Positions 10,910-39,669 of a DNA stretch of 64,000 nucleotides are shown here, one piece after another (position 1 is the stretch's first letter; the number at the start of each line of letters is the position of its first letter). The stretch comes from Thalassovita mediterranea (GTDB taxonomy: Bacteria; Pseudomonadota; Alphaproteobacteria; Caulobacterales; Hyphomonadaceae). The DNA lies in contig CP080408.1 of NCBI GenBank assembly GCA_019448215.1, positions 620,001 through 684,000 on the forward strand. Reading direction: 5' to 3'. A program made the translations under genes and the position numbers. The notes under the pieces were generated by a model, which ran no database searches, was not told the origin of the DNA, and saw nothing but the letters and a program-made list of their open reading frames with translations.

Positions 10910-12904
10910 ATGACGGATGCACCAGCGCGAAAAGTAGGAGTTGGCCGCTATTGGGCAGACCTTTCCCTGCCCTTCAAGGGACTCGTCCTCGTGGCCCTGC
11001 CCCTCGTTATCCTGATTGGATCGCTCGGCAGTCTTTATATCGCAAGCGATGCAGAGGCGCGGGCTGAGGACGATGTACGACGCGCCTTCGCAATTCAGCG
11101 CGACATCTATCAGGTCCATGCGCTTCTTGCAGAAGCCGCCAGCGGCGTACGCGGCTATCTGCTAACCGATCAGAACCGCTTTCTCGAACCTTTCTACAAG
11201 GCCGAACGCGAATTGCCTTTGACCCTGGCACGCCTCGATGAAGCGATTGAGGACGAAGGCGTCCGGCGTGAGTTCGAACGGTTTCTGGAGATCACTGAGC
11301 AGAAACAGGCAGGCCTCGATGCCCTGATTGCGCTCGCCCGCCGTGAAGGGGAGCGTCCGGCGAGGTCCGATGCAGTGCTTTCCGCCCTTGTGGCAAACAA
11401 GGCCGTTCTTGATGATTTGCGCAGTCAGATTGAAGAAATCCAGCGCCAGGAAGGCATCCTGCTCGACAACCGGCGCGCGCGTGTCGACACCGTCCGCGCA
11501 CGCTTCCTCGCACTGACCGCAATCAGCGCCATTGTTGGACTGCTGGGCAGCCTTACTGCCGTCTTCCTGTTCTCAACCGGCATCGTGCGCCGTGTTCGCA
11601 TGCTTCAGGTAAACGCGGAAAAGCTACAGGCTGGCGATCCGCTAAACCCGTTTCCGGATGAGCGTGACGAGATCGGCAGGCTCGCAAAAAAAGTGGACCG
11701 CGCCAGCGAGCTGCTCAGGGCTCGCGAACGCGACCTTCGAGAGGGCGAAGAACGGTTCAGGCTCGTTGTGGAAGGCGTACGCGACTATGGGATTTTCGCG
11801 CTCGACCCCGAAGGAAATGTCACAAGCTGGAATACTGGCGCAGAGCGCATCAAGGGGTGGCGCGCCGACGAGATACTGGGCCGCTTCTTCGGTACGTTTT
11901 ATCCGGAAGAGACGCGCGATTACCTTCCAAAGGAAATACTTGAGCGCGCACGGCGTGATGGCACGACGGAGGATGAAGGCTGGCGCATGCGTAAGGATGG
12001 CACGCGCTTCTGGGCCAATGTCGTGGTCACGGCGCTTCGCGATGAGACGGGTGAGCTCAGAGGTTTCGCGAAAGTCACTCGCGACATGACAGAACGCAAG
12101 CGTGCCGAAGAGTTCCTGAAGCTGGCGAGGGAACAGGCGGTCGCCGCGAGTGCCGCAAAAAGTGAGTTCCTGTCACGCACAAGCCATGAACTTCGCACAC
12201 CAATGAGCGCCATCCTCGGCTTTGCGCAAGTGCTGGAGCTCGACCGGGGAGAGCTTTCTCCGACGCACCAGACGTCAGTTGACCAGATCCTGAAGGCAGG
12301 GCGTCATCTTCTTTCCCTCATCAATGACCTGCTCGACATTTCCAGCATCGAGGCAGGCGGCGCTGAGCTGAAAGAAGAAGACCTCAGCTTGAACGATGTC
12401 CTCGCTGAAGCTTACGACCTCTCTGGTCCGATCTTGAGGGCTGCCAGCCTCCAGTACGACCTTTCACTCCTGCCAGAAGACACGAAAATCACTGGCGATC
12501 GCCGACGGATCGTGCAGGTCATCCTCAACCTCGCTTCCAATGCTGCAAAGTATAACCGCGAAGGCACATCGGTTCAGATCATTGCTGAGAAAATGGAGAA
12601 CCAGGTTCGTGTTCATGTGCTTGATGACGGGAACGGCGTGAAGGAGGCAGACGTCTCTCGCCTGTTTACGCCCTTCGACAGGCTGGGCCGACAGAAGGTC
12701 AAAGGTGTTGAGGGCACAGGCCTTGGCCTGGCGCTCTCCAAGCGGCTCGTTGAATCCATGGGCGGCGAAATCGGCTACGCCCATCGCAAGGATATGAGCG
12801 GCGGCGCAGACTTCTGGTTCACCCTGAAAATGGCTCAACCTGGCCAGACCAGCGGCGAGGGAGCCCAAGCGCAGCACACCAAGGAATCTTCGAAGAAGGC
12901 ATGA
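10910..12904 (+). CDS. Membrane CHASE3-HAMP-PAS sensor histidine kinase
   Basis: A 664-residue kinase beginning at ATG 10910 (MTDAPARK), four bases after the regulator gene. Order of domains: a first membrane segment (residues about 24-45); a periplasmic helical CHASE3-like domain (about 47-195, with LLAEAASGVRGYLLTDQNRFLEPF as its mark); a second membrane segment (about 200-222); HAMP (about 223-275); and PAS (about 285-400, with DYGIFALDPEGNVTSWNTGAERI). These are followed by HisKA with His426 in SRTSHELRTPM and an HATPase domain (NLASNAAKYN, DDGNGV, GTGLGLALSKRLVE). It overlaps the stand-alone receiver gene by ATGA. The signal is unknown. Confidence 0.92.
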   Translation: MTDAPARKVGVGRYWADLSLPFKGLVLVALPLVILIGSLGSLYIASDAEARAEDDVRRAFAIQRDIYQVHALLAEAASGVRGYLLTDQNRFLEPFYKAERELPLTLARLDEAIEDEGVRREFERFLEITEQKQAGLDALIALARREGERPARSDAVLSALVANKAVLDDLRSQIEEIQRQEGILLDNRRARVDTVRARFLALTAISAIVGLLGSLTAVFLFSTGIVRRVRMLQVNAEKLQAGDPLNPFPDERDEIGRLAKKVDRASELLRARERDLREGEERFRLVVEGVRDYGIFALDPEGNVTSWNTGAERIKGWRADEILGRFFGTFYPEETRDYLPKEILERARRDGTTEDEGWRMRKDGTRFWANVVVTALRDETGELRGFAKVTRDMTERKRAEEFLKLAREQAVAASAAKSEFLSRTSHELRTPMSAILGFAQVLELDRGELSPTHQTSVDQILKAGRHLLSLINDLLDISSIEAGGAELKEEDLSLNDVLAEAYDLSGPILRAASLQYDLSLLPEDTKITGDRRRIVQVILNLASNAAKYNREGTSVQIIAEKMENQVRVHVLDDGNGVKEADVSRLFTPFDRLGRQKVKGVEGTGLGLALSKRLVESMGGEIGYAHRKDMSGGADFWFTLKMAQPGQTSGEGAQAQHTKESSKKA

Positions 12905-13362
12905 CCTCCATCGCAGTCCCATATGATCAGATCCTGCAGCGGCGTGTCCTGATTATCGATGATGAGGAAGCAAACCTCCTCTTGCTGGAAACCCTGCTCA
13001 AACGTGAGGGCTATTCCGAAATCCACTGCCTGTCTGATCCATCGCAGGCCATCGAGAAATTGGTCGAGATCGAGCCACATATCATTCTGCTCGATCTGAT
13101 GATGCCCGACATCGACGGCTATCAGCTGCTCGATGCGTTTCGCCGCCACAGCCGACCAGATGAGTTTCGGCCCGTTCTTGTGCTGACAGCCGACACAACC
13201 CTTCAGGCCCGCCGCCGGGCGCTTTCTCTTGGCGCAAAGGATTTTGTGTCCAAACCCTTCGATGTGATCGAAATCGCGTTGCGGATATCCAACCTGCTGG
13301 AGACGCAAATCCTCTACGAGCGCCTGAGACACCGTACTGAGCCGGCGGACGGCATAGAATAG
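12901..13362 (+). CDS. Single-domain response regulator (CheY-like receiver)
   Basis: A 153-residue protein made only of a receiver domain, with an acidic cluster DDEE at residues 20-23, phospho-acceptor Asp65 in IILLDLMMPDIDGYQLL, and the conserved AKDFVSKPFD lysine. There is no DNA-binding or enzymatic output domain, so it must act by protein contact or as a phosphotransfer intermediate. The ATGA overlap with the CHASE3 kinase makes that kinase its likely partner. It may connect to the NarL-type pair at the head of the operon as part of a relay, but no histidine phosphotransferase is visible. Confidence 0.9.
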   Translation: MTSIAVPYDQILQRRVLIIDDEEANLLLLETLLKREGYSEIHCLSDPSQAIEKLVEIEPHIILLDLMMPDIDGYQLLDAFRRHSRPDEFRPVLVLTADTTLQARRRALSLGAKDFVSKPFDVIEIALRISNLLETQILYERLRHRTEPADGIE

Positions 13363-13376
13363 ACTGGCTACCCAAA

Positions 13377-13395
13377 TTTAATGTGATATATTAAT
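13377..13395. promoter_or_regulatory. TetR operator copy 1
   Basis: TTTAATGTGATATATTAAT, 19 bp with a central A. It shares shape and most bases with the sites at 16857 and 17580, and lies 64 bp before the MBL hydrolase start. Confidence 0.6.
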
Positions 13396-13458
13396 TTCTC
13401 CCGATGTCGCGTCGAGGGTGTCGGTAGCGGCCGTTGAATGGGTCTGGGGGATGTAAGC

Positions 13459-14544
13459 ATGGTCTGGGTACGCAGGATAATCATCGCTATCGTCATTGTG
13501 GCGGCCTTGGCGTTCGCCGGTTTCAACCTGTTCAAACAGCAGATTGCCATGGCCGCCTTCAACCGCACGGTAGAGCGCAATGCAGGCGTGGACAGAACGG
13601 CAGATCTGCCGGACGGGCTGCATGTCTATGTCTGTGGATCTGGCTCTCCCATGTCTGATCCGACACGCGCCGGTCCCTGCATCGGAATTCTTGCCGGGAC
13701 GCGCGCCTATATCATCGACGCTGGCGCAGGCGGCGCGCGCAATCTCGGAACGATGGGATTTCCGTGGGGCAGGCTCGAGGCGGTCTATCTCACGCACATG
13801 CATTCAGATCATATCGATGGCCTGGGAGAATTACTGCTCCAGTCCTGGATTGCTGGCGCGCGCAAGACGCCGACGGCGATATTCGGCCCTGTCGGGACAA
13901 GCGAGGTCGTTGACGGGTTCAACGCCGCTTACAGGATCGACAGCACCTTCCGCCTCGCCCATCACGGCATGGAGGTCGCAGATCCCGCAGGCTTTGGCGG
14001 CATCGCAACCGAGATTGAGCTGCCAGCTGGGCCCGCAGGTGAGAGCGTCGTCTTCCAGGATGGTGAGCTGACGATCACTGCCATACGCGTCGATCACTCA
14101 CCAATTGAGCCCGCTTTCGCCTATCGCATTGATTACAAGGACCGGTCCATATCGCTGAGCGGTGACACCATATTTCACCCGCCATTCATCGCCGCTTCGA
14201 CGGACGTGGACATCATGTTCCACGAGGCCCTCAACAGGGAAATGGTGACCGCAATCAGCGCTAAACTCGGTGAGCGGGGCGTAGCCAATGGCCAGAAAAT
14301 CTTCACCGATATTCTCGATTATCACGCCTCACCAGTGGAGGCCGCCAGAGCCGCCCAGGAAGCTGGTGCAAGGCATCTTGTGCTCTACCACCTGGTGCCG
14401 CCCCTTCCTGTGCCACTTATAGAGGCCGCATTCGTGGGCGATGCCCGGTCACACTTTGATGGGCCAATAACAGTCGGGCGGGACGGCATGCTCTTCAGCC
14501 TTCCAGCCGGGTCAGATCGCATAATCAAACGAACGACATTCTAG
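13459..14544 (+). CDS. Membrane-anchored MBL-fold hydrolase (RNase Z / AtsA arylsulfatase-like)
   Basis: A 361-residue metallo-beta-lactamase-fold enzyme with an N-terminal membrane segment (residues 5-25) and a periplasmic catalytic domain. The metal motif is complete: THMHSDHIDG with His113, His115, Asp117 and His118. The domain opens with CGSGSPMSDPTRAGPC and later shows SGDTIFH and a C-terminal LYHLVPP. This layout fits the RNase Z-like subgroup, which includes the MBL-type arylsulfatase AtsA. A sulfate-ester role is attractive because type I sulfatases with a matching operator lie nearby, but the substrate cannot be read from sequence. I prefer ATG 13459 over ATG 13438 because CTGGGGGA lies at the right distance. 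It is followed after 14 bp by the DUF4345-like gene. Confidence 0.8.
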   Translation: MVWVRRIIIAIVIVAALAFAGFNLFKQQIAMAAFNRTVERNAGVDRTADLPDGLHVYVCGSGSPMSDPTRAGPCIGILAGTRAYIIDAGAGGARNLGTMGFPWGRLEAVYLTHMHSDHIDGLGELLLQSWIAGARKTPTAIFGPVGTSEVVDGFNAAYRIDSTFRLAHHGMEVADPAGFGGIATEIELPAGPAGESVVFQDGELTITAIRVDHSPIEPAFAYRIDYKDRSISLSGDTIFHPPFIAASTDVDIMFHEALNREMVTAISAKLGERGVANGQKIFTDILDYHASPVEAARAAQEAGARHLVLYHLVPPLPVPLIEAAFVGDARSHFDGPITVGRDGMLFSLPAGSDRIIKRTTF

Positions 14545-14558
14545 GTGAGGACCAGACC

Positions 14559-14939
14559 ATGACCTTGGCTGCAAAAGGTGCCGGACTACTCGTTTTCCTG
14601 TTTTCAGTCCTGCTCGGGGCGGCCGCGTTGATCGCCCCGGACAGGGCCGCCGAGCAGCTTGGCTTCGCCCCTCTCAGCGACATGGGCAGAAATTCAGTTA
14701 GGGCCGACATTGTCGGCTTTGCCTGGGCAAACGCCTTGCTATGCGGCGGTGCACTTTTCACAGGCCGGGTGCACTGGTTCTACGGCGCGGCCTGTCTGTA
14801 CGCGATTGCGGTCACCGGCCGCATCATTGACGTGGTCCTGTCGGGACCACCTGAGGGCGTTGCACGCGCAATTATCGTCGAATTGGTGCTTGTGGCGCTA
14901 GCGCTCTTTGCAGGCAGATGGAGTGCCTCATCGCGCTGA
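14559..14939 (+). CDS. DUF4345-like small membrane protein
   Basis: A 126-residue protein with four hydrophobic segments (about residues 5-27, 46-66, 70-90 and 103-120). Its loop RAAEQLGFAPLSDMGRNSVRADIVGF fits the DUF4345 family of unknown function. GTGAGGACC precedes the ATG. It lies 14 bp after the MBL hydrolase gene and is probably its operon partner under the operator at 13377. A short inverted repeat CCGCACG/CGTGCGG (14941-14970) follows, between this gene and the convergent isomerase-like gene, without a clear U-run. Confidence 0.7.
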   Translation: MTLAAKGAGLLVFLFSVLLGAAALIAPDRAAEQLGFAPLSDMGRNSVRADIVGFAWANALLCGGALFTGRVHWFYGAACLYAIAVTGRIIDVVLSGPPEGVARAIIVELVLVALALFAGRWSASSR

Positions 14940-14998
14940 CCCGCACGGTCGGCTGAAACACTTCGTGCGGTTCAGCGAGCGAGGGCAATGGCCATCCT

Positions 14999-15646
14999 TC
15001 AGCGCTTTGGCACACCAGCTTTCTCCATCCGCCAGCGAAGCGTATCGATCCTGTCCTGACCAAAGAACGGCTCGTCCTCGAACACCATGGTCGGCACGCC
15101 CCAATGCCCGGACGCGTCCAGGGCTGCCTGATTGCGCTCTATTTCCGTTTCATGATCACCGTTTGCGATGGCTTCGTCCATCTCCGCAAGGTCCAGCCCC
15201 GCCTGCGCAACCGCATCGCCAAGGCTTGATCCCTTGTCCCAGTCTTGGGTGCCACCGAAGATCAACGCAGATACGTGACCGGCCAATTCAAGTCCCTTTC
15301 CGCGCCGGTTCGCCTCCACACCAAGTTTCGTCAGCCGATAAATGTAGGGCTGCTCCTCGGCGACCTTCATGGTGGCGAAGTCCTGTACGACCGGGTCGGG
15401 GCGAAGCGGATAGATTACAGGCCGACCAAGCATCTCACCTCGCCGCATGCTATCGCGAACGATATAGATCGGCGCGCGTCGGTCGTTCGCATCGAACAGC
15501 GCCTCAGGGTTGCGGATCGCGAGCGGCAGTACGGGCCGAAGAGCAATATCGACTTCGAAGTCCTCACCCAGCTTCAGCAAGTCTGGAACGACGAGCCTGG
15601 AATACGGGCTTCGAAAGGACCAGAAAACGTCGATCTTCGCGGTCAT
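14999..15646 (-). CDS. DsbA-fold protein, 2-hydroxychromene-2-carboxylate isomerase-like
   Basis: A 215-residue cytoplasmic thioredoxin-fold protein of the DSBA/kappa-GST group. The N-terminal FWSFRSPYSRLVVPDL has the Ser-Pro-Tyr pattern used by 2-hydroxychromene-2-carboxylate isomerases in place of the CXXC of true DsbA, so a glutathione-dependent isomerase or transferase is more likely than a disulfide catalyst. The C-terminal HWGVPTMVFEDEPFFGQDRID is the family's cis-Pro and closing motif. AAAGGAATATGAT precedes the ATG. It lies 30 bp downstream of the dehalogenase-like gene on the same strand and is probably co-transcribed. Such enzymes occur in aromatic or halogenated-compound degradation; the substrate here is unknown. 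Confidence 0.8.
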   Translation of the reverse strand: MTAKIDVFWSFRSPYSRLVVPDLLKLGEDFEVDIALRPVLPLAIRNPEALFDANDRRAPIYIVRDSMRRGEMLGRPVIYPLRPDPVVQDFATMKVAEEQPYIYRLTKLGVEANRRGKGLELAGHVSALIFGGTQDWDKGSSLGDAVAQAGLDLAEMDEAIANGDHETEIERNQAALDASGHWGVPTMVFEDEPFFGQDRIDTLRWRMEKAGVPKR

Positions 15647-15676
15647 ATCATATTCCTTTGCGTTAGCGCAGATTGG

Positions 15677-16744
15677 CTAGTCTCCAGTAATGACGCCAGA
15701 CTGCGCAGAGCTTTCCTGTACTTCATCCACCACTCTCATCACAGCATCAGCGATGACGCCGGGCACTTCTTCCTGGAGGAAGTGACCCGCCTCTGTCTCA
15801 GTTACCGGCGCGGTCGGAAAATGCTCCATCATGGAAGGGAGTGTGCGTCCGACAATCGGATCATTCATCCCCCAGACGATTTCGACCGGAATGTCGAGGC
15901 TGCGAACATATGGCACCAGTTTCGCCATCTCCGCGGTGCTGGGATGATCAGGTGAATGCGGCACCATTCGCATCATGGCGAGCGGAGCTTTCTTGTTGCC
16001 GCTTTCCAGAACTGGCCGACCATAAAGCTCCTTGACCTCGGGGGGCATCGAATCCGGATCGTGCTGAGGGCTATCCAGTTGATCAAAAATGGAATTGACG
16101 GTTTCAACGGCCAGCTCGCCGACAATCGGCGTCCTCACCAGATCATGGATACGCGAAAGGCTGATGTTCTCGGTCGGCGCATAAATCGCCGTGTTCATCA
16201 TGACAGCGCCTTCGAGAAGCCCCGGAGAAAGCGAGAGCGCACCTACGCCGATAATGCCGCCCCAATCCTGACCGACATAGACGACACCCTCAAGGTCCAG
16301 TTCGTTCAGAGCCTTGTTGAGCCATCGATTATGGTTGGCAACTGTATGCTGCCTGACCGGGACTTTCGATGAAAACCCGAGACCAACCAGTGTCGGCATG
16401 ATGACCCGGACACGATCGAGCGTAAGCTCTTCAACCACTTTCCGGTAGAGAAAACCTGATGTCGGATTGCCGTGCTGCATGAAGACCGGATAGCCCGTGC
16501 CCACTTCCAGCATGTGGATCTTGATGCCCGGTTCGACCTCTATGAGGTAGCTCTTATAGTCTTCGGTGACAAAGCGAGCAGCATAGTCCGGGAGCGGGAA
16601 TGCCTCGAATGTCTTGGCGCCGATGGTGACAACCCCCTGCCCTTCTGGCGTCACCAGTTTTCCTTGCCGGGTAATGAGGAAAGCGCCGACAAGCGCTGCC
16701 ACGACCAATGTGGCGAGAACGATCAATACGATCCTCAAAATCAT
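15677..16744 (-). CDS. Membrane-anchored alpha/beta hydrolase, haloalkane-dehalogenase-like
   Basis: A 355-residue alpha/beta hydrolase with an N-terminal membrane anchor (residues 2-25). Its motifs match haloalkane dehalogenases closely: HGNPTSGFLYRKV (oxyanion and halide-binding Asn93), nucleophile Asp160 in YVGQDWGG, and catalytic His321 in EAGHFLQEEVPG. Dehalogenases of this group hydrolyse carbon-halogen bonds, but epoxide and ester hydrolases share the fold, and the usual halide-binding Trp is present directly after the nucleophile (DWGG). The anchor is unusual for this normally soluble family. AGGAGGGGAAC precedes the ATG. A perfect 19-bp palindrome 113 bp upstream matches the operators of the nearby sulfatase operon. 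Confidence 0.82.
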   Translation of the reverse strand: MILRIVLIVLATLVVAALVGAFLITRQGKLVTPEGQGVVTIGAKTFEAFPLPDYAARFVTEDYKSYLIEVEPGIKIHMLEVGTGYPVFMQHGNPTSGFLYRKVVEELTLDRVRVIMPTLVGLGFSSKVPVRQHTVANHNRWLNKALNELDLEGVVYVGQDWGGIIGVGALSLSPGLLEGAVMMNTAIYAPTENISLSRIHDLVRTPIVGELAVETVNSIFDQLDSPQHDPDSMPPEVKELYGRPVLESGNKKAPLAMMRMVPHSPDHPSTAEMAKLVPYVRSLDIPVEIVWGMNDPIVGRTLPSMMEHFPTAPVTETEAGHFLQEEVPGVIADAVMRVVDEVQESSAQSGVITGD

Positions 16745-16856
16745 GTTCCCCTCCTGCCCGACCTCGCTAGCCAGTGACGTCGTCGCCTATCAAATGGCCC
16801 GCCACGGATCCCGCCTCGGCCGACCGGCGGGCTCGGCGCATTCAGGCAGCCCGCCC

Positions 16857-16875
16857 ATTAATGCAATGCATTAAT
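16857..16875. promoter_or_regulatory. TetR operator copy 2, perfect 19-bp palindrome
   Basis: ATTAATGCA-A-TGCATTAAT, perfect 9-bp arms around a central A. It lies upstream of the dehalogenase-like operon (start 16744) and just past the end of the tetR gene. It is the best copy of the three operators in this region. Confidence 0.75.
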
Positions 16876-16937
16876 AAAGATCTGTTGCGATTAGGCAAGC
16901 GCAGTCTTGAGGTTCAACCTCTGCCATGACGCAGGCT

Positions 16938-17552
16938 TCAGGCTTCAAGAAAGCCCGCAAGGCCGGCAGCCGCCTCGCTCACCGCTTCGGTGACGGGTGG
17001 GGCAGTTCCCGCCTCGAGGTCACGCGCAAAGTCAGCGCTCTGCATCAGGGAAAGCTTGAAAGCCAGACGAAGTCGCGCCTGCAATACCTCAGCAGGCACA
17101 TGGCCTATCTTGCTTGCGAGCCCTTCCCGGAGGCTCAAGACACTTTTCATGCCGATGTCCTGTACGAGGGCCATGACGTCGAAGCGGGGGTCAGCCGCAA
17201 GCTGAACACAAAACCTCGCATAGAGGCGTCCGTCTTCATCCATGCACGACTCGAACAGCGGGCTGATCGCGGCTTCCAGGAATTGCTGAAGCGTCCAGTC
17301 AGACCCTGACTGGAGAAGCGCCGTCAAACGCTGAAGCCGCGCCGATTCAATCGACTTGTATCGGTGCGCGAAAACCTCGCGCATAAGCGCTTCGATATTT
17401 CCGAAGTGATAGTGAACGGCGCTTGGATTCTTCGCGCCAGCCGCAACGGTAATGTCCTTCACCGAGACCGTGCCAAGGCCCTTCTCAGCAAACAGGCGTT
17501 CGGCCGCGCGGATAAGCGCTGCTTTCGTATTCGACTTCGTACTTTGTTGCAT
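16938..17552 (-). CDS. TetR-family regulator of the sulfatase region
   Basis: A 204-residue repressor. The N-terminal helix-turn-helix (residues about 8-60) reads KAALIRAAERLFAEKG and AAGAKNPSAVHYHFGNIEAL, typical of TetR; the C-terminal helical ligand domain is not assignable to a ligand class. I take ATG 17552 (MQQSTKSNTK) as start, because an earlier ATG would place the gene over the operator at 17580. It is divergent from the sulfatase operon and directly downstream of the dehalogenase operator, so it is flanked by two copies of the 19-bp site that it most likely binds. Release by a pathway substrate would switch on three transcription units. Confidence 0.88.
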   Translation of the reverse strand: MQQSTKSNTKAALIRAAERLFAEKGLGTVSVKDITVAAGAKNPSAVHYHFGNIEALMREVFAHRYKSIESARLQRLTALLQSGSDWTLQQFLEAAISPLFESCMDEDGRLYARFCVQLAADPRFDVMALVQDIGMKSVLSLREGLASKIGHVPAEVLQARLRLAFKLSLMQSADFARDLEAGTAPPVTEAVSEAAAGLAGFLEA

Positions 17553-17579
17553 TCGACCGGCACCTGATGCTATCGCAGC

Positions 17580-17598
17580 ATTAATATGATACATTAAA
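17580..17598. promoter_or_regulatory. TetR operator copy 3, between tetR and the sulfatase operon
   Basis: ATTAATATG-A-TACATTAAA. It lies 28 bp before the tetR start and 52 bp before the sulfatase start, fitting control of both and self-repression. Confidence 0.65.
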
Positions 17599-17649
17599 AG
17601 GCGCTGGCCAGATAGTCGTTGCGCCAGCTTCTTTTGGGGGGACTAGCAA

Positions 17650-19335
17650 GTGTGGAAGCGTATCGCCATCACTACAGTGGGCTTGGTGATCATTTTGGCC
17701 GGTCTTGCCTGGCTCAACCGAAAAGCGATCATTCTTCACCTCGTTTCCAGTCAGGGAGAGGTGGAGGTGGCCGAGAACCGATCCATCGAGTGGAATCAGG
17801 GACCTGCCGCCGAGCAATCCGGGACGCCAAGACCTCCAAACATCATCTTTATCCTGGCAGATGATCTCGGCATCAACGATATCTCGACCTTTGGCGGCGG
17901 CGTGGCCGACGGTGCGGTGCCAACCCCAAATATCGACAGACTGGCCGGCAGCGGCGCTATTTTTCAGAACGCCTATTCAGGTACGGCAACGTGCGCACCG
18001 TCGCGGGCCATGCTGCTCACCGGACGATATCCGACCCGGACCGGATTTGAATTTACTCCAACGCCGCCCGGCATGGGCCGCGTGGTTTCGATGTTTGCCG
18101 AAGATACACTGGAAGACGCTGGCCTGCCGCCCATGACGTGGAACAGGCAAGCCGATGAGAGCGGTGTTCAGTATGCCGATATGGGCTTGCCCGGCGAAGA
18201 AGTGACCATCGCTGAAGCGCTCCAGACCGCGGGCTACCACAACGTCCATATCGGCAAGTGGCATCTGGGGCGGGCCACCCCCTTCAGGGCCGTGTCTCAA
18301 GGGTTTGACGAAAGCCTTCTGATGGCAAGCGGGCTCTACCTTCCAGAAGACGACCCGGGCGTTGTGAACGCGAAACTCGATTTCGACCCGATCGACATCT
18401 TCCTCTGGGCAAGGATGCAGTTTGCCGCTGATTTTGACCGCGCCGGAGAAACGCCAGGTGATGAGTGGTTTGAGCCCGCTTCCTACATCACCGACTATTA
18501 CACCGACGAAGCGCTGGACGTTATCGAAGCCAATCGCAACCGTCCCTTCTTCCTGTACCTGGCTCATTGGGGTGTACATTCACCACTGCAAGCAACCCGC
18601 GAAGACTTCGAGGCGGTCGGCGATATCGAGCCCCACCGCGAACGCGTCTACGCAGCCATGATCCACGCACTGGACCGCAGCGTTGGAAGGATCATGGACA
18701 AGCTTGAAGCGGAGGGCCTCGCTGACAATACGATCATTGTCTTTACCTCGGACAATGGCGGCGCCGGATATATCGGCATCCCGGACGTGAATGCACCTTA
18801 CCGGGGCTGGAAGATTACCCTGTTTGAAGGCGGCATCAGGGTTCCAATGTTCATATCATGGCCGGACCGGATTGCGCCCGGCACAGTGATTGAAGAGCCT
18901 GTCGCCCATATCGACGTACTTCCCACGCTTGTGGCTGCCGCAGGCGTATCCATGCCAGGGAATGTAGAGATCGACGGCCGCAACATTCTGCCGCTTGCCA
19001 CAGGCGAGGCGGAGGTTTTTGAGCGCCCGGATGACGCGATCTTCTGGTCGAGCGGCTACTACAAGGTCGTGCGGTCTGGTGACTGGAAGCTGCAGGTGAA
19101 TGAACGCCAATCGAAAAGCTGGCTGTTCAACCTGGCTGAGGATCCGACCGAAACGCTCAATCTCATCGAAAGCCATCCCGATAAAGCAGCGGACCTGCAG
19201 GCCCTCATTGATCGCCACTGGGCAGACGCGCGCGCGCCTCTTTATCCATTTACGACCGAGACCCCAGTGCGGATCGACAAGACGAATGCTGATCCGGCCG
19301 GTCCCGATGACGAATATGTCTACTGGCCGAACTGA
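17650..19335 (+). CDS. Type I (formylglycine) sulfatase, membrane-anchored
   Basis: A 561-residue sulfatase with an N-terminal signal anchor (residues 3-22). Family motifs are complete: IIFILADDLGINDIS (metal aspartates), TCAPSRAMLLTGRYPTRTG with Cys115 as the residue to be converted to formylglycine (CXPSR type), GKWHLG, and IVFTSDNGGAG (Asp/Asn metal ligands). It should hydrolyse sulfate esters in the periplasm. The start is GTG 17650 with GGGGGGA upstream. The stop is three bases before the second sulfatase, and a formylglycine-generating enzyme follows, so the operon supplies its own maturation enzyme. The closest subgroup is arylsulfatase A-like; the substrate is unknown. Controlled by the TetR operator at 17580. 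Confidence 0.92.
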   Translation: MWKRIAITTVGLVIILAGLAWLNRKAIILHLVSSQGEVEVAENRSIEWNQGPAAEQSGTPRPPNIIFILADDLGINDISTFGGGVADGAVPTPNIDRLAGSGAIFQNAYSGTATCAPSRAMLLTGRYPTRTGFEFTPTPPGMGRVVSMFAEDTLEDAGLPPMTWNRQADESGVQYADMGLPGEEVTIAEALQTAGYHNVHIGKWHLGRATPFRAVSQGFDESLLMASGLYLPEDDPGVVNAKLDFDPIDIFLWARMQFAADFDRAGETPGDEWFEPASYITDYYTDEALDVIEANRNRPFFLYLAHWGVHSPLQATREDFEAVGDIEPHRERVYAAMIHALDRSVGRIMDKLEAEGLADNTIIVFTSDNGGAGYIGIPDVNAPYRGWKITLFEGGIRVPMFISWPDRIAPGTVIEEPVAHIDVLPTLVAAAGVSMPGNVEIDGRNILPLATGEAEVFERPDDAIFWSSGYYKVVRSGDWKLQVNERQSKSWLFNLAEDPTETLNLIESHPDKAADLQALIDRHWADARAPLYPFTTETPVRIDKTNADPAGPDDEYVYWPN

Positions 19336-19338
19336 TCC

Positions 19339-21108
19339 ATGAAGACCGCATTATATTTCCTGCGCTCAATCCTCGCGCTTTTCGCGCTCTCGGCATCACT
19401 TGCCGCGCATGCAGAGCGGCCGAACTTTATCGTTATTCTGGTTGATGACGCGGCTCTCATGGACTTCCAAGTCTATGGCGGGGAAGCAGCGACACCCAAT
19501 ATCGACATGTTGGCGAATAGCGGCGCCTTGTTCACCCAGCATAGGGCCACGCCGTTCTGCGCCCCATCGCGCGCCATGCTGCTCACCGGCCTCGATAATC
19601 ATCTTGCGGGATTTGGCACCATTGCGGAAGTCCTGCCACCCGAACACCGCGGCCAGCCCGGCTATACAATGGCGCTGGAACCCGGCGTCGAAACGATCGC
19701 GACAAAGCTCAGTCGCGCAGGCTATCGGACCTATATGACGGGCAAGTGGCACTTGGGACATGGCGAGGGCGAGTTGCCCGTGGATCATGGCTTCGACCAT
19801 TCCTTCATCCTCGACGCCTCCGGGGCCGATAATTGGGAGGACAAGCCCTACCTGCCCTACTACAAGGAGGCGCCCTGGTTCGAGGATGGGGAGAAAGCCG
19901 ACCTTCCGGACGACTTCTATTCCTCGACTTTCATTGTCAGGCAGATGCAGGACTATCTGGAGGCAGATGAGGCCCAGTCAGAGCCATTCTTCGCCTATGT
20001 GTCATTCATGGCGGTCCATATCCCCGTCCAAGCGCCAAAGTCTTTCACGGACAATTATCTCGACACCTACCGCGATGGCTGGGACGGGATTCGTGAACAG
20101 CGGTGGCGCCGTGCTCAGGAGTTGGGGCTCGTTCGAGAGGGCGCCGCGCTGGCGCCTCAGCCCGAAACAATCCCGCGCTGGGACGACCTGTCTGAGGAAG
20201 AGCAGCGCATCGCCGCCAAGAGCATGGCAGTCAATGCAGGTGCGCTGGAAGCCATGGATGCCGAGGTGGGCAACCTCATCAACTATCTGAAAGCGTCCGG
20301 TCAGTTCGAAAACACTGTCTTCGTCGTCACTTCAGACAATGGACCTGAAGGCGGCGACCCATGGGATACACAGCTCCAGTTGTGGTTCGACCTGAAAGGA
20401 TATTCCCGCGACTATGACACACTGGGCGAGCGCGGTAGCTATGTCGCGCTTGGCTCTGGTGGCGCGAGCGCGATGGCGGGACCGAACAATCTGTTCAAGT
20501 TTCACGCTGGCGATGGCGGCTTGCGCGTTCCCCTCATCATGTCGGGCCCGGGGCTGCCAGAGGCTTCAACGGTCTCAGCTTTCACGACAATGGCAGACGT
20601 GACGCCAACCCTGCTCGAACTCGCCGGAGCAGAAAGTGATGCTCCCGGCACAAAGCCAATCACAGGTCGGTCGCTGCTGCCGCTTTTGAATGGCGAGGCC
20701 GGAACCGTTTATGGCGAACATGAAGCCGTCGGCTTTAGCACTTCGGGGCAGGCTGCTCTCTATCGCGGCCGCTACAAACTCGTGCGTAATCTTCCTCCGC
20801 ATGGCGACAGCGTCTGGCGTCTGTTCGATATGGAGAATGACCCCGGCGAGACGGCTGACCTCTCAGTTGAAATGCCGGATCTCAAGGCCGACCTCATGGA
20901 AGCGTATCGTCAATATGCTGAGCGGGTCGGCGTGCTTGAATTGCCACCAGGTTATCAGGTCGAACAGCAAATCGCGCACAACATTCGCGAAAAGCTCTGG
21001 GAGTATTACTGGTACTGGTTCCTGATCGCGGGCCTTTTGCTTCTCGTCATTCTGGCGCTGCTCTTCATTGGGGCAAGGCGCCTGTTGCGGACGATGCGAG
21101 CTCGGTAG
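19339..21108 (+). CDS. Type I sulfatase with signal peptide and C-terminal membrane anchor
   Basis: A 589-residue sulfatase with a cleavable signal peptide (residues 1-25, ending in AHA), the active-site motif FCAPSRAMLLTG with Cys74, MTGKWHLGHG, VVTSDNGPEGG and a C-terminal membrane helix (about residues 556-580, WFLIAGLLLLVILALLFIG) followed by a basic tail. The catalytic domain therefore faces the periplasm and is held to the inner membrane, as also expected for the first sulfatase through its N-terminal anchor. The second enzyme is not a close copy of the first and probably acts on a different ester or position. It starts three bases after the first sulfatase and ends six bases before the FGE-like gene. 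Confidence 0.92.
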   Translation: MKTALYFLRSILALFALSASLAAHAERPNFIVILVDDAALMDFQVYGGEAATPNIDMLANSGALFTQHRATPFCAPSRAMLLTGLDNHLAGFGTIAEVLPPEHRGQPGYTMALEPGVETIATKLSRAGYRTYMTGKWHLGHGEGELPVDHGFDHSFILDASGADNWEDKPYLPYYKEAPWFEDGEKADLPDDFYSSTFIVRQMQDYLEADEAQSEPFFAYVSFMAVHIPVQAPKSFTDNYLDTYRDGWDGIREQRWRRAQELGLVREGAALAPQPETIPRWDDLSEEEQRIAAKSMAVNAGALEAMDAEVGNLINYLKASGQFENTVFVVTSDNGPEGGDPWDTQLQLWFDLKGYSRDYDTLGERGSYVALGSGGASAMAGPNNLFKFHAGDGGLRVPLIMSGPGLPEASTVSAFTTMADVTPTLLELAGAESDAPGTKPITGRSLLPLLNGEAGTVYGEHEAVGFSTSGQAALYRGRYKLVRNLPPHGDSVWRLFDMENDPGETADLSVEMPDLKADLMEAYRQYAERVGVLELPPGYQVEQQIAHNIREKLWEYYWYWFLIAGLLLLVILALLFIGARRLLRTMRAR

Positions 21109-21114
21109 GCATTC

Positions 21115-22071
21115 ATGAAAGCCTGGTCCTGCTCCATCACACTCCTCGTTGTCGCCAGTTCAGCAGCGGCGGAAAGCGCTGGTGATCTTGTCTGGACCGA
21201 CGTTCCGGGCGGCTGTTTCCAGATGGGCGAGACGAGGGCTTATCCGGAAGAGGCGCCGGTCCACGAGGCATGCGTCGAACCTCTGCAAATGACGCAAACT
21301 GAAATCACGAATGCGCAATTTTCCCGTTTCGTTGACGAGACCGGCTACGTCACCCGGGCAGAAAGGGGATGGCGGGCCGATGAACCAGAAGGCCCCGGCA
21401 TCGACGTTCCGCCAGCGTCTGCCGTCTTCACACCGCCTGAGCGCATGCGAACGGCCAATCCAATCTGGTGGAAGCTTATTGACGGAGCCAATTGGCGCGC
21501 GCCAGCCGGAGCGGCAGCGAGCGATGACACTTCGCCCGACTGGCCCGTCGTTCATGTAACGCTGGAAGATGCGCAAGCCTTTGCAGCCTGGGCAGGCGGA
21601 CGCCTTCCGACGGAAGCGGAGTGGGAACATGCGGCCCGCGGCGGTCATGAAGGTCGGCTGCTCTCCTGGGACCCGGACAGCGAAGGAAGTTCAGGTCCTT
21701 TGGCCAACACCTGGCAAGGCATCTTTCCCATAGAGGATACCGGAGACGACGGTTTCGCAGGTCTCGCCCCCGTCGGGACCTATCCTGCGAATGAGTTCGG
21801 CCTCTATGACATGATCGGCAATGTCTGGGAGCTAACGGCGACCCCGTATGCGCCATCCTACCGCCGCGCAGATCAGGCCCGCGCCCAGCCGGCCGGCTTT
21901 GATCCGGCTCAGCCCGGCATACCGGTCGTGACGATAAGAGGCGGCTCTTATCTCTGCAGCACATCGTTCTGTTATCGCTTCAGACCTGCAGCGAGACAGG
22001 CCCAGGACATCGCTTTCGCGACCTCGCACATCGGCTTTCGCCTCGTGAGGGACGTTCCTGCGAGAGACTAG
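21115..22071 (+). CDS. Exported formylglycine-generating enzyme (SUMF1/FGE family)
   Basis: A 318-residue FGE-family protein. It reads VPGGCFQMGETRAYPEEAPVH at the start of the domain, LPTEAEWEHAARGG in the middle and GNVWELTATPY near residue 240. The C-terminal RGGSYLCSTSFCYRFRPAAR keeps the two active cysteines, Cys281 and Cys286, with the C-x4-C spacing of human FGE (Cys336/Cys341). These bind copper and oxidise the sulfatase cysteine to formylglycine using oxygen. Many family members lack these cysteines; this one should be active. An N-terminal signal peptide (residues 1-20, ITLLVVASSAAAES) predicts a periplasmic location, unlike well-studied cytosolic bacterial FGEs. It is the last gene of the sulfatase operon. 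Confidence 0.9.
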   Translation: MKAWSCSITLLVVASSAAAESAGDLVWTDVPGGCFQMGETRAYPEEAPVHEACVEPLQMTQTEITNAQFSRFVDETGYVTRAERGWRADEPEGPGIDVPPASAVFTPPERMRTANPIWWKLIDGANWRAPAGAAASDDTSPDWPVVHVTLEDAQAFAAWAGGRLPTEAEWEHAARGGHEGRLLSWDPDSEGSSGPLANTWQGIFPIEDTGDDGFAGLAPVGTYPANEFGLYDMIGNVWELTATPYAPSYRRADQARAQPAGFDPAQPGIPVVTIRGGSYLCSTSFCYRFRPAARQAQDIAFATSHIGFRLVRDVPARD

Positions 22072-22082
22072 AAATGACCCGC

Positions 22083-22802
22083 CTACAGGGTTTCCGGGGC
22101 GCGCTCAGTGATATGGGGGCCAGCCTTTGAGAGTTGGGCCTGATACGCTTCGATCTTCGACTGAAGCAGTTTCTGCCCCTGCGGCGTTGCTGATCCCTTC
22201 AGACAGAGCGCATAGCCGATGCCGACCGTGGGCGTCAGTGCAGAGGTCGATACCCCTCCCATCGCCCACGAAAGAAGCGCGCCGCCGGTCACATGCGCCA
22301 TGGACTGCATAATCAGCTCTGCCGGGATATCTTCCGCCAGATAGCCATCACGAACGGCGTTGCTGACAAGGCCGAGCCAGATCGCGCGCGTCTGGGCGAG
22401 CCGCTCTGGTGTTGCAAGCCCGGTGTCATCCTGTCCGGAGGTGGACAGCAGCGCGCGCCAGAGCGTGCGATAGAATTCCGGGTCGCTTGTATAATAGCTG
22501 AACGCAAGGTCGTGCGCGCCGAAGATGCGGTCGATACTGTTGCCACTATCAAGCTTGCGGAAACGCTCAGCGAAATCGCGCTCATCCTCAAGCACGGCCA
22601 GTACGACAGCGCGTTTCGACCCGAACAGGTTGTAGGGCGTTGACAGGCTGACGCCTGCGCGCTGTGCCAGCGTCCGCATGGAGAGGTCGGTTTCGCCCGT
22701 CTCGCGGATGAGGTCGCGCGCCGCACGCACAATATCAGTACGCCGCCGCGCCTTGGCCTGCTCGCGCTTGCCCAAGTCTTCCACGGTTTGAAGCCCCTTC
22801 AC
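22083..22802 (-). CDS. TetR-family regulator at the end of the hydrolase operon
   Basis: A 239-residue regulator with an N-terminal helix-turn-helix (RRRTDIVRAARDLIRETGETDLSMRTLAQRAGVSLSTPYNLFGSKR, about residues 19-65) and a helical ligand domain of unknown specificity. I choose GTG 22802 because GAGGGATCGGCA sits right before it and begins just at the stop of the FAD oxidoreductase gene; a TTG 33 bases earlier lacks such support. It is the sixth and last gene of a tightly packed minus-strand operon, so it may repress its own operon, plausibly at the palindrome 27522-27533. Confidence 0.85.
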   Translation of the reverse strand: MKGLQTVEDLGKREQAKARRRTDIVRAARDLIRETGETDLSMRTLAQRAGVSLSTPYNLFGSKRAVVLAVLEDERDFAERFRKLDSGNSIDRIFGAHDLAFSYYTSDPEFYRTLWRALLSTSGQDDTGLATPERLAQTRAIWLGLVSNAVRDGYLAEDIPAELIMQSMAHVTGGALLSWAMGGVSTSALTPTVGIGYALCLKGSATPQGQKLLQSKIEAYQAQLSKAGPHITERAPETL

Positions 22803-22812
22803 TGCCGATCCC

Positions 22813-24333
22813 TCAGGCCGCAAGTCCGGCCTCAACGGGTGTCTGGCGCATATCGGCCTTTGGGTCGAGGTTAAGTGCCACCATCATCTGCTGGCGCTCC
22901 GGCCCGGGCTTGGGTGGATAGGCTGCCGCATTCCGCTTCTTTCCACGCGACCAGTACCAGAGCACGCGTCCCAAATTTGCGGGTTTGCCCAGCCATTTGT
23001 TGGGATGTTCCAGCATGTGAAAGCCCCGCATCGCCTGACGAAGAAGATCGACGTCAGAGCGCAGCGCGATCCGTACGCCATCCTCGAAGAAGCTTTCCAC
23101 CAGTTTGCCGCGCCAGCTCTTCTTGTAGCCCGGTGTCAAGGCAGCTTCAGCCCGTTTGATGGCAGAACGGTCCTGCGCACGCTGGTTCATGTAATAGGGC
23201 CGAAGCTCTGTGCGCAGCTTTGCATGATAGACACGCTGACGCTCGGTCGCATCCGACGTCTCTTCCAGCGTCTCGCGCAACATTTCTGCGCTCACAGCCG
23301 CGAATGAACACCCGCGGCCATAGAGTGGGTTAGTTCTCACCAGCGTATCGCCGAGCGGATAATAATTGCGCGTCGCCGGTACATTATCGACGACCATGTC
23401 CCGCCAGCGGCTATGAAGGTCTCCCATGCCATGCACCTTGCCGCGCGGTTCGGAACGGCTCTCATTGGTCCACGGCTCGATCCCTGGAAGCTGCAGCGTG
23501 ATGGCGTGGAAGACGTCGGGGTTCATGATCGCCTTGCGCAGCTCCAGCTCCACCTCAGGCACGGAAATCGTGACCGAGAAACAGCCATTGTCGCCAGGAA
23601 ACACACCGAACTTGATATAGCCAAGATCGCCGCTCGCAGGCGGGTTCTCCGTCCGCGACGGTTCATCCTGTCCCGGCCTCAGCCGGTAGTGGCGGGTGAA
23701 GTAGAGAATACCCGCCGTCTCGCTCTCTTCAGCGATTGCCGCGCCTTCATCCATCAGCTGCTGGATGAGGAAACCTGACTTGCCGCTGGCATCGACGATA
23801 ATGTCGGCAGAGAGAACCACCGGCTCATTATTCTCTTCTCCGCTCACACCGCAAACCTTGATGAGGCTGCCTTCCCCTGCCCGGGTGGACAGTTTGCGTA
23901 CAAAGAAGCCGGATCGGATCGTTACATTCTCCAGCCCTTCAACATAACGACGAATGGCAAGCTCGAGCGTCGTCCGGCGGCTGGTAATGATTGTAAGATC
24001 AGCATCCTCTGGCAGCGGCTCATATCGATCGCGCTGCTGCTCGGTCAGCATCATGTCGAAGGTGAGATCGCGTGTGCCGAGGGCCTTCAGCTCCTCAAGC
24101 AGGTCTGGGTGATGCTGCTTGATGATGTTGCGAAGCCGGGCAAGGAAGGCATGGCTCTGACGGACATGCCCTGCACCCCGCCGGTGCCAGTCCAGGAAGA
24201 CCACGTCCGGATCATCAGCTGGCGGCGGCGCGTCCCGCTCCAGTATTGTGATCTGCCGACCGGTTGGCGCAAGCGACAGCGCGGTACAGAGCCCGCCAAT
24301 GCCTGCGCCGATGACGAGAACTGTTTCCGTCAT
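22813..24333 (-). CDS. FAD-dependent oxidoreductase / monooxygenase-like
   Basis: A 506-residue flavoprotein. The N-terminus TVLVIGAGIGGLCTALSLA is the Rossmann GxGxxG motif, followed about 20 residues later by the acidic end of strand two (ILERDAPPP). A second FAD motif appears as YPLGDTLVRTNPLYGRGCSFA (the GD motif of aromatic hydroxylases and geranylgeranyl-reductase-like enzymes). It therefore belongs to the broad hydroxylase/reductase flavoprotein class; which reaction it performs is open. A very good AAGGAGGTGGATGG ribosome-binding site precedes the ATG. It overlaps the upstream hydrolase by four bases (ATGA) and is followed by tetR. An oxidation that makes an epoxide would fit the epoxide-hydrolase-like neighbour, but this is inference. 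Confidence 0.8.
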   Translation of the reverse strand: MTETVLVIGAGIGGLCTALSLAPTGRQITILERDAPPPADDPDVVFLDWHRRGAGHVRQSHAFLARLRNIIKQHHPDLLEELKALGTRDLTFDMMLTEQQRDRYEPLPEDADLTIITSRRTTLELAIRRYVEGLENVTIRSGFFVRKLSTRAGEGSLIKVCGVSGEENNEPVVLSADIIVDASGKSGFLIQQLMDEGAAIAEESETAGILYFTRHYRLRPGQDEPSRTENPPASGDLGYIKFGVFPGDNGCFSVTISVPEVELELRKAIMNPDVFHAITLQLPGIEPWTNESRSEPRGKVHGMGDLHSRWRDMVVDNVPATRNYYPLGDTLVRTNPLYGRGCSFAAVSAEMLRETLEETSDATERQRVYHAKLRTELRPYYMNQRAQDRSAIKRAEAALTPGYKKSWRGKLVESFFEDGVRIALRSDVDLLRQAMRGFHMLEHPNKWLGKPANLGRVLWYWSRGKKRNAAAYPPKPGPERQQMMVALNLDPKADMRQTPVEAGLAA

Positions 24334-25292
24334 CCATCCACCTCCTTCAGGAAGCGAAGAATGACCTCATTGGTCTTTTCCGGCGCTTCCTGCTGCGTCC
24401 AGTGTCCGATGCCAGGGATGAGCTCATTGATGCGCAGGTCACGCACATAATTTGGCATGGCCTGATAGGCCTCAGCGGCCATCATGATCACCCCATCATT
24501 GGCCCCGCCAAGAAAGAAACCGGGCTGGTCGATATGCTCAGGCGCGCCCTCGGTCAGCTTCCAGGCAAGATCGTGGTTACGATAATAGTTTAGAGGCCCG
24601 CGCATACCTGACCGCCCGAACTCGCCGGCATAGAAGTCGAGATCTTCCTCGCTCAGCCATGGCGGAAGCGTTTCAGGATCTGGCAGACTGCTGAACATGT
24701 CGTCGTCCGGGCCTTTCGGCGTGAGTTGTGTGAGGTCCGTCTCCCCGCCCGCAAGAACCAGGAACTTCTTCAACGCCGTTCGGATATCGGCCTCGAATTC
24801 AGCCTCGGCGACGCCCGGTTCAAAGAAGTAGAGCTGGTAGAAAAACTGGCCCTTGAACATCTCGCGCATGGCCGGCATCGGCTGGACCGGAGAGCGCGGC
24901 ATGAAGGGCACCGACAGCGCCCCGACTGCACGCACCTTATCTGGATGATGGAGGGCCGTCGCCCACGCCGTCGGCGCGCCCCAGTCATGACCGATGACGA
25001 TTGCCTCATCATAGCCAAGCGCTGGGATCAGATTGATAATGTCCTTGCGGACTTCAACCTGATTGTACGCCTCGATCTCATGCGGCTTGTCGGACTTGCC
25101 ATAGCCGCGCATGTCCGGTGCCACGACGTGATAGCCAGCATCGGCGATCGGTTTGAACTGATGGCGCCAGGAATACCACGACTCCGGAAAGCCATGCAGA
25201 AGCAGGACGAGAGGCCCCTCCCCTGCTTCTGCGATGTTGAGCTCTATGCCGTTTGTTGCGACCCGGCGCTCGCTCACCCCGGGCCAGCTCAT
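24330..25292 (-). CDS. Alpha/beta hydrolase, epoxide-hydrolase-like
   Basis: A 320-residue cytoplasmic alpha/beta hydrolase. It has LLLHGFPESWYSWRHQ (HGxP oxyanion motif), DMRGYGKSDKP, nucleophile Asp103 in VIGHDWGAPTAW and catalytic His297 in PGIGHWTQQEAP. The HGFPESW plus GHDWGA pair is typical of soluble epoxide hydrolases, which add water to epoxides to give diols; fluoroacetate dehalogenases share it. Tyrosines that activate the epoxide are plausible in the cap (FYQLYFFEPG and NYYRNHDLAWK). The gene overlaps the amidohydrolase upstream and the FAD oxidoreductase downstream by ATGA, indicating coupled translation and a shared pathway. Confidence 0.87.
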   Translation of the reverse strand: MSWPGVSERRVATNGIELNIAEAGEGPLVLLLHGFPESWYSWRHQFKPIADAGYHVVAPDMRGYGKSDKPHEIEAYNQVEVRKDIINLIPALGYDEAIVIGHDWGAPTAWATALHHPDKVRAVGALSVPFMPRSPVQPMPAMREMFKGQFFYQLYFFEPGVAEAEFEADIRTALKKFLVLAGGETDLTQLTPKGPDDDMFSSLPDPETLPPWLSEEDLDFYAGEFGRSGMRGPLNYYRNHDLAWKLTEGAPEHIDQPGFFLGGANDGVIMMAAEAYQAMPNYVRDLRINELIPGIGHWTQQEAPEKTNEVILRFLKEVDG

Positions 25293-26986: not shown

Positions 26987-27251
26987 GGGGCGTTTCCCTC
27001 TGGTCTTGTTCTTTTTCGTTGAGATATCGGGCCGAAGAGGCGGCGAGTGCGTCGCGCACACGCTCCCACCCGGTTCCTGTCAGGTCTTCCGGCTGGTCTG
27101 CGCCGGTCGACTCCATCAATTGGCTTGTTGCGTACTCATCAAGCGTCACGAGTGACTGCCCACCATTCTCGAAGGCGAGCGTCACTATAAGTTCGGCGAT
27201 ACCATCATGGGCGGCGGCGATCTGAACGTGCTTGATGATTGCGCCGCTCAT
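26979..27251 (-). CDS. Small hypothetical protein, 90 residues
   Basis: A 90-residue protein beginning MSGAIIKHVQIAAAHDGIAELIVTLAFENGG, which looks like a small beta-sheet unit, followed by SLVTLDEYATSQLMESTGA and a charged C-terminus. No family is recognised. It overlaps the 80-residue gene upstream by ATGA and the amidohydrolase downstream by 8 bp, so it is certainly in the operon and likely translated. The conserved coupling suggests an accessory or subunit role for the amidohydrolase, but nothing in the sequence proves it. Confidence 0.7.
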   Translation of the reverse strand: MSGAIIKHVQIAAAHDGIAELIVTLAFENGGQSLVTLDEYATSQLMESTGADQPEDLTGTGWERVRDALAASSARYLNEKEQDQRETPHV

Positions 27252-39508: not shown

Positions 39509-39669
39509 GACCATTGCGAATATTGAGAGGACAAGCCATCTCGCGCCGATCTGGATTTGGCTTGCATTCTATTTCTGCTTGATAGACCGTCTTTCTTCAG
39601 AATGTCGTTAGGCCGTGCGCATCGGGGTTAACTCTTACCCTTCGCCGGAAATTCTCGATGGAGGGGACC

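Follow-up and report, generated by a model that had tools for sequence, protein, structure and literature searches.

A probable TetR-centered regulon with three palindromic operators links sulfatase genes to a putative catabolic route in Thalassovita mediterranea

By analyzing a stretch of 64,000 nucleotides from Thalassovita mediterranea (contig CP080408.1 of assembly GCA_019448215.1, positions 620,001 to 684,000; hereafter the window, whose own numbering is used below), we found three operators of one palindromic type around a gene for a TetR family regulator, tetR (16938-17552, minus strand). Each stands upstream of a different transcription unit: a metallo-β-lactamase (MBL)-fold protein with a small hydrophobic protein; a haloalkane dehalogenase (HLD)-like hydrolase with a DSBA-family protein; and two formylglycine (FGly)-type sulfatases, SulfA and SulfB, with a formylglycine-generating enzyme (FGE). 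We give a probability of roughly 80% to the reading that these genes form a tetR-centered regulon, in which one local TetR acting at three operators would govern how a sulfated lipophilic compound is taken up and broken down. We hold with high confidence that the regulon itself is real, as a new and clearly delimited member of the TetR-controlled catabolic gene sets, which are a known kind. The proposal of the initial annotation that one type of TetR operator unites the three units is strongly supported by the uniqueness of the motif in the host genome and by its recurrence with close TetR relatives elsewhere, and these comparisons fit a tetR product that would bind, and presumably repress from, the palindrome at its own promoter and at those of its targets.

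All three sites are 19 bp long and lie where the initial annotation had placed them. Operator 1 (13377-13395, plus strand, TTTAATGTGATATATTAAT) begins 15 bp past a response-regulator gene and is ~43 bp upstream of the MBL gene start as called. Operator 2 (16857-16875, minus strand, ATTAATGCAATGCATTAAT) is indeed the perfect palindrome announced there, with 9-bp arms on either side of a central A; it stands ~63 bp beyond the 3' end of tetR and ~113 bp upstream of the HLD-like start codon. Operator 3 (17580-17598, given no strand, ATTAATATGATACATTAAA) lies between the divergent tetR and sulfatase operon, flanked by the starts of tetR (17552, minus) and SulfA (17650, plus). Their scores with the operator matrix are 26.6, 30.2 and 26.6 bits, respectively. 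All three thus precede the named units, "directly" being too strong a word for operator 2.

In the window, the three operators are the sole exact matches to the operator pattern, and none arose in 100 dinucleotide shuffles of its sequence. The genome-wide motif check that had been called for, made here by pattern search in the complete genome (a single contig of 3,218,854 bases), found TTAAT-N7-ATTAA at 3 places, which are the three operators and span 4.2 kb; the probability that three random sites would fall within 4.2 kb is ~5e-6. A relaxed pattern (WNTAATRN5YATTANW, at most one mismatch) matched 7 places in this genome, the 3 exact operators and 4 one-mismatch sites, compared to 9 for the reversed control, and thus gives no sign of extra operators there. 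Promoter and terminator scans returned 1 promoter-like site, away from the operators, and no sigma-70-like promoter at the operators themselves.

The TetR protein (204 residues, compared in a 19-row alignment) carries a TetR_N helix-turn-helix domain (PF00440, E 4e-10, 39.7 bits against a cut-off of 24). Its start at 17552 agrees with those of its relatives, and a longer frame of 218 residues from 17594 would overlap operator 3. The best PDB profile match, 2fbq, covers N-terminal residues 5-66 only, and the best NCBIfam score was reached with the PsrA model (51.5 compared to a cut-off of 300).

Within the window's family, TetR matches at E ≤ 1e-10 are present in 31 of 105 genomes, with an identity above 50% in three of the 105: the window's genome, G015 (97%) and G025 (56%). 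G015 shares the regulon genes and has operators at the three corresponding positions, in flanks that show gaps and changes; its copy of operator 1 is ATTAATGTGATATATTAAT, its copy of operator 2 has two base differences, both within the 5-base spacer, and the 19-bp operator 3 is unchanged. By scanning a collection of genome contigs with two peptide patterns and a three-TetR alignment, and taking the best 80 of 122 confirmed places, we found at least 18 alphaproteobacterial loci (L059-L076, a lower bound; among them the contigs of G015, as L059, and of G025, as L062) with a close TetR relative, 48-97% identical over nearly the full length. They come from Henriciella, Maricaulis, Novosphingobium, Sphingomonas, Porphyrobacter, Erythrobacter, Sandarakinorhabdus and less precisely named Alphaproteobacteria. 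Among the same best 80 of 122 places, the next long TetR matches are at 36-38% identity, and some short stretches elsewhere reach 48%.

These loci sharpen the consensus to A/T-N-TAATG-N5-CATTA-N-A/T. First, the strict pattern HNTAATG-N5-CATTAND occurs at 33 places in 16 of 17 whole genomes with a TetR relative, compared to 2 for the reversed control (17 of the 18 holder genomes were counted, L062 being omitted; its contig entered the gene-distance count as L036, with 2 places). Second, out of 35 distinct strict sites (36 before L165 14034 was recognized as a duplicate of L063 1759), 33 are centered 5-139 bp upstream of the nearest regulon-gene start and none lies inside a regulon gene. These starts were extrapolated from tblastn, which places HLD and Baeyer-Villiger monooxygenase (BVMO) genes at L063 127-1803 and L162 1256-4822, where our own gene caller gave artefact frames. 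Third, at a threshold of 20 bits, L059-L076 contain 55 matrix sites in 293 kb (17 of 18 loci), compared to 3 in the 1,006 kb that surround 62 TetRs of more distant kinship; among the 17 loci L060-L076, 13 have a matrix site just upstream of tetR. Finally, four strict sites outside L059-L076 all stand upstream of regulon genes, that is before BVMO (G110:C60), SulfB/FGE (G112:C197 and G116:C26) and SulfB (G108:C135:16030); these promoters are homologous to those that shaped the motif, and the test is not fully independent. Together, these data show that the motif and, in large part, the gene set recur with close TetR relatives, as the initial annotation had suggested checking.

The plain TTAATN7ATTAA was also tried as a family-wide marker and rejected as too loose (23 of 105 genomes versus 28 of 105 for the reversed control); in G007, G029 and G046, sites of this form are found close to distant TetR matches. 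Outside the Alphaproteobacteria, the betaproteobacterium Variovorax sp. dw_308 has tandem TAATG-N5-CATTA-like sites (L107 13859-13895, 23.2 and 25.8 bits) just upstream of a second, distant TetR gene (~29% identity), and these two account for 2 of the 3 matrix matches at ≥20 bits in the distant set. Judging from this case, the operator type may be common to a wider TetR group. In the TetR tree, Sphingomonadaceae, Erythrobacteraceae and Sphingosinicellaceae are mixed within well-supported groups, many inner forks being weak, and among 397 sampled genomes of G111's family a TetR match at E ≤ 1e-40 was found in G111 itself only (at most 7 candidates were scored per genome in the rows shown, and matches may have been missed). 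Such mixing, and one holder in 397, are in keeping with sideways movement. No close TetR was found in the plasmid collection, where 75 records match, all below 60% identity, the ten listed being at 29.6-35.6%.

The sites of L059-L076 precede tetR, SulfA, SulfB, HLD, MBL, DUF4345-like, TonB receptor, MFS transporter, BVMO and EF-hand genes, and on two further contigs an operator lies between SulfB and FGE. The regulon of the relatives is thus wider than the window locus, adding a BVMO, a TonB-dependent receptor, an MFS_2 transporter and EF-hand proteins. For the L073 BVMO, the score with the PtlE pentalenolactone D synthase model is 657.6 bits (cut-off 1100), and the protein is not assigned to PtlE; its PDB matches are 5mq6, phenylacetone and steroid monooxygenases. 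The MFS_2 transporter resembles sugar symporters. A glutathione S-transferase (GST)-like protein (by Pfam, for the L066 copy) adjoins MBL in two fuller loci and SulfA in four operator-free loci. EF-hand proteins, small and of calcium-binding type, recur in the wider regulon, for instance at L066 13851-14804 and L073 13507-15014.

Both sulfatases of the window, SulfA (17650-19335, plus strand, PF00884 E 6.4e-54, 183.7 bits) and SulfB (19339-21108, plus strand, E 2.3e-57, 195 bits), score far above the family cut-off of 25 bits and carry the C-x-P-x-R motif of FGly (S1) sulfatases as CAPSR. The FGE (21115-22071, plus strand, PF03781 E 3.4e-69, 233.8 bits), when aligned to 1y1e, which we take to be human FGE, retains both cysteines of the C-terminal GGSYxCxxxxCYRxR stretch, presumably the active-site pair. 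Hydrophobic stretches, read from the translations, are N-terminal in SulfA, FGE, the MBL protein and the HLD-like protein and C-terminal in SulfB, from which we infer that much of the chemistry would be located in the periplasm or at the membrane and act on a lipophilic compound. The best PDB sequence matches of SulfA are kappa-carrageenan S1 sulfatases (top: exo-4S-kappa carrageenan S1 sulfatase), and that of SulfB is a P. aeruginosa arylsulfatase (331 bits to 4cxk and 1hdh), 1hdh being P. aeruginosa atsA of subfamily S1_4 (PMC5066984).

The MBL protein (13438-14544, plus strand, with a possible start at the ATG at 13459 according to the alignment) has the MBL fold and an HxHxDH motif (H120, H122, D124 and H125, invariant across 7 rows). 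The initial designation as an MBL hydrolase therefore holds as to fold and motif and can be corrected towards an arylsulfatase: 8gyg, which is one, is both the best fold match of its model (predicted local distance difference test, pLDDT, 84.1) and its best PDB sequence match, at 22-23% identity in the fold alignment and with PNGM-1 and RNase Z close behind. SulfAtlas family S4 lies near the RNase Z clade, has Alphaproteobacteria as its best-represented class and was selected at ≥30% identity to AtsA (PMC5066984), a threshold that refers to AtsA and not to 8gyg. Thus, the MBL protein is a candidate S4-like arylsulfatase and may be the third sulfatase of the regulon, alongside SulfA and SulfB. 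The small hydrophobic protein of the same unit (14559-14939, plus strand, 126 residues) has a 93% identical copy in G015 and no Pfam or NCBIfam match at E ≤ 0.001, which leaves its description as DUF4345-like unsupported; in related loci, DUF4345 matches were obtained for two small proteins, one slightly over the cut-off and the other slightly under it.

The HLD-like α/β hydrolase (15677-16744, minus strand) has the catalytic pentad N93, D160, W161, D295 and H321, the last four being invariant in 10 of 10 rows and position 93 being Asn in 8 window-type rows and Glu in two ABH2 rows. Its scores are below the NCBIfam haloalkane dehalogenase cut-offs (132.7 versus 265, 116.5 versus 241 and 96.4 versus 466), and a separate ABH2 protein of L064 passes NF002043 (394 versus 265). 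On a halogenated substrate, raised at first as a possibility, the evidence is thus divided between five catalytic residues in a subfamily III arrangement and scores well below the cut-offs; an aromatic compound found no direct support. The adjacent DSBA-family protein (14999-15646, minus strand, PF01323 E 7.9e-15) has a DSBA domain and a weak likeness to 2-hydroxychromene-2-carboxylate isomerase (2imd, E 4e-4 over 45 residues), the two features behind the suggested glutathione-type isomerase.

Taking these observations together, TetR would act locally, most likely as an autorepressor, by binding (A/T)NTAATG-N5-CATTAN(A/T), or close variants, at three promoters, and would so control MBL with the small hydrophobic protein, HLD-like with DSBA-like, and SulfA-SulfB-FGE. 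An effector derived from the substrate would bind TetR and switch on the three units together. The co-encoded FGE would activate SulfA and SulfB, which, perhaps with the MBL protein, would remove sulfate groups, and the HLD-like hydrolase and DSBA-like protein would act on the desulfated product. In the wider regulon, BVMO, TonB receptor, MFS_2 transporter and EF-hand proteins would complete a route that takes up and degrades a sulfated and probably lipophilic molecule, which would turn into a ketone once its sulfate is removed; such a compound is our best guess for the substrate. The catabolic pathway for a sulfated compound put forward initially is thus plausible, and strengthened by two FGly sulfatases with an FGE, a third sulfatase candidate and the BVMO, TonB receptor and transporter of related regulons.

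Several observations weigh against this reading. Most of the counts above use a pattern and a matrix derived from the very loci counted or from promoters homologous to theirs, and a matrix restricted to the three sites of the window gives a poorer separation (42 sites at ≥18 bits in 272 kb versus 23 in 1,006 kb; 55 versus 150 at ≥14 bits). Two of the 35 strict sites, L064 16218 and L071 3168, have no recognized target, the latter standing upstream of a DUF6515 protein, and L070 holds a TetR relative in a genome without a strict site. The center of operator 3 is 37 bp from the tetR start in the window, compared to 20-21 bp in relatives with a strict site there. In the window's genome, exact and relaxed pattern searches found no operator-bearing BVMO, TonB, MFS or EF-hand copies, and its nearest BVMO (51%, G000:C1:982667) has no site in the surrounding 18 kb. 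Moreover, SulfA relatives are present in 72 of the 105 family genomes (E ≤ 1e-60, best matches mostly at 62-72% identity), as against 3 of 105 with a TetR above 50%, and the enzymes are thus independent of this regulator.

In the wider family, HLD is found in 5 of 105 genomes at E ≤ 1e-45. Four of the SulfA loci that we fetched from other family genomes (L205, L206, L208 and L210) lack any matrix site at ≥13 bits, although SulfA is accompanied there by some of the genes for SulfB, FGE, MBL, GST-like and HLD-like proteins; it would seem that the regulon with operators is one regulated version of a commoner enzyme set. A weakly TetR-like, different protein adjoins SulfA in L205, with a similar gene by eye in L210. 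In G063, which has no TetR match at E ≤ 1e-10, a site-like palindrome (L207 9635-9653, 19.7 bits) lies upstream of a SulfA homologue.

Other explanations were weighed against the same data. TetR could be an activator, or depend on a second factor, rather than a simple repressor: operator-to-start distances range from 5 to 139 bp, and the scan detected no sigma-70-like promoter at the sites with which they might overlap. Given that TetR-family proteins are mostly repressors and that 13 of 17 loci have a close site before tetR, which fits autorepression, we consider this unlikely. A sulfated polysaccharide, the substrate type of many clustered marine S1 sulfatases, would account for the carrageenan sulfatases matched by SulfA, for a transporter like sugar symporters and for a TonB receptor in the wider regulon; it is nevertheless an improbable substrate, since no glycoside hydrolase or polysaccharide lyase family was found among 30 proteins scanned, glycan breakdown would not be expected to involve a BVMO or an HLD-like enzyme, and SulfB matches the P. 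aeruginosa arylsulfatase.

A more speculative version, for which we see a slim chance, is that the regulon breaks down lipids both sulfated and halogenated, such as chlorosulfolipids, which occur in chrysophyte algae. The sulfatases would then strip the sulfate esters, the HLD-like enzyme would remove chlorine and, in fuller regulons, BVMO would cut the chain next to the freed secondary alcohol once oxidised. In the titles and abstract openings of open-licence papers, the scope of all our literature searches, we found no description of bacterial chlorosulfolipid or danicalipin breakdown; if true, this would be a bacterial sink for such lipids.

That another regulator of the window binds the sites, tetR being near by coincidence, is very improbable: a second TetR (22083-22835) and the response regulator (12901-13362) are close by, the latter ending just before operator 1, and G015 too has matches to both, but the motif travels with relatives of tetR in other genera and no called gene of L060-L076 clusters with either neighbor (≥38% identity). 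Finally, a chance cluster of AT-rich promoter DNA, although the sites are AT-rich and within promoter regions, can practically be dismissed, as the pattern is unique in 3.22 Mb and its recurrence with close TetR relatives in other families contradicts it.

Beyond the tetR-centered regulon, the window contains on its minus strand, at 22083-27061, the second TetR with a FAD-dependent oxidoreductase, an α/β hydrolase and an amidohydrolase, without operator, which is probably a separate catabolic unit. Further on, two very large tandem frames (32685-39446 and 39658-45591) have N-termini similar by eye; a domain scan of the first showed 10 PATR repeats and an autotransporter β-domain.

Since regulator, operator and targets are defined jointly in the window and in 18 related loci, an effector screen offers a direct way to the natural substrate. 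The holders AAP60, AAP62 and AAP81b are not marked as metagenome bins and are probably isolates, hence testable. In Porphyrobacter sp. AAP60, the locus carries operators upstream of BVMO, TonB, MFS/tetR, SulfA and HLD, and in Sandarakinorhabdus sp. AAP62 they precede BVMO among other genes. The regulon joins two or three sulfatase types with a BVMO and an HLD-like enzyme, a combination absent from the literature searched, where no description of the regulon was found under sulfatase/FGE with TetR, BVMO, HLD or TonB.

Its parts can be compared to known systems. With haloalkane dehalogenases of subfamily III, the HLD-like protein shares the Asn, Asp-Trp, Asp and His of DhmeA, and differs in its scores below the NCBIfam cut-offs and in its hydrophobic N-terminal segment; the subfamily is described as weakly active in dehalogenation and as comprising OleB, a β-lactone decarboxylase (PMC10503415). 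With the MBL-type arylsulfatases of Pseudoalteromonas (AtsA, SulfAtlas S4; 8gyg is from P. atlantica), the MBL protein has the fold and HxHxDH in common, and it differs from 8gyg by an extra N-terminal hydrophobic helix and an identity of 22-23%. The slfRCHSL operon of plasmid pP62BP1 is likewise a set of genes under regulation, whose predicted role is the use of organic sulfates and which combines a sulfatase with enzymes for later steps; it has an AraC-type regulator, a type 3 (MBL-related) alkylsulfatase, dehydrogenases and a CoA ligase, and its five genes comprise no FGly sulfatase, FGE, BVMO or HLD (PMC3346939). There is also a likeness of organization with TetR-family autorepressors that have a divergent operon and a small local regulon: the window TetR departs from them in matching 2fbq by its N-terminal part only and the PsrA model below its cut-off, and shares with them the TetR_N domain, a palindromic site and the position of that site between tetR and the divergent operon.

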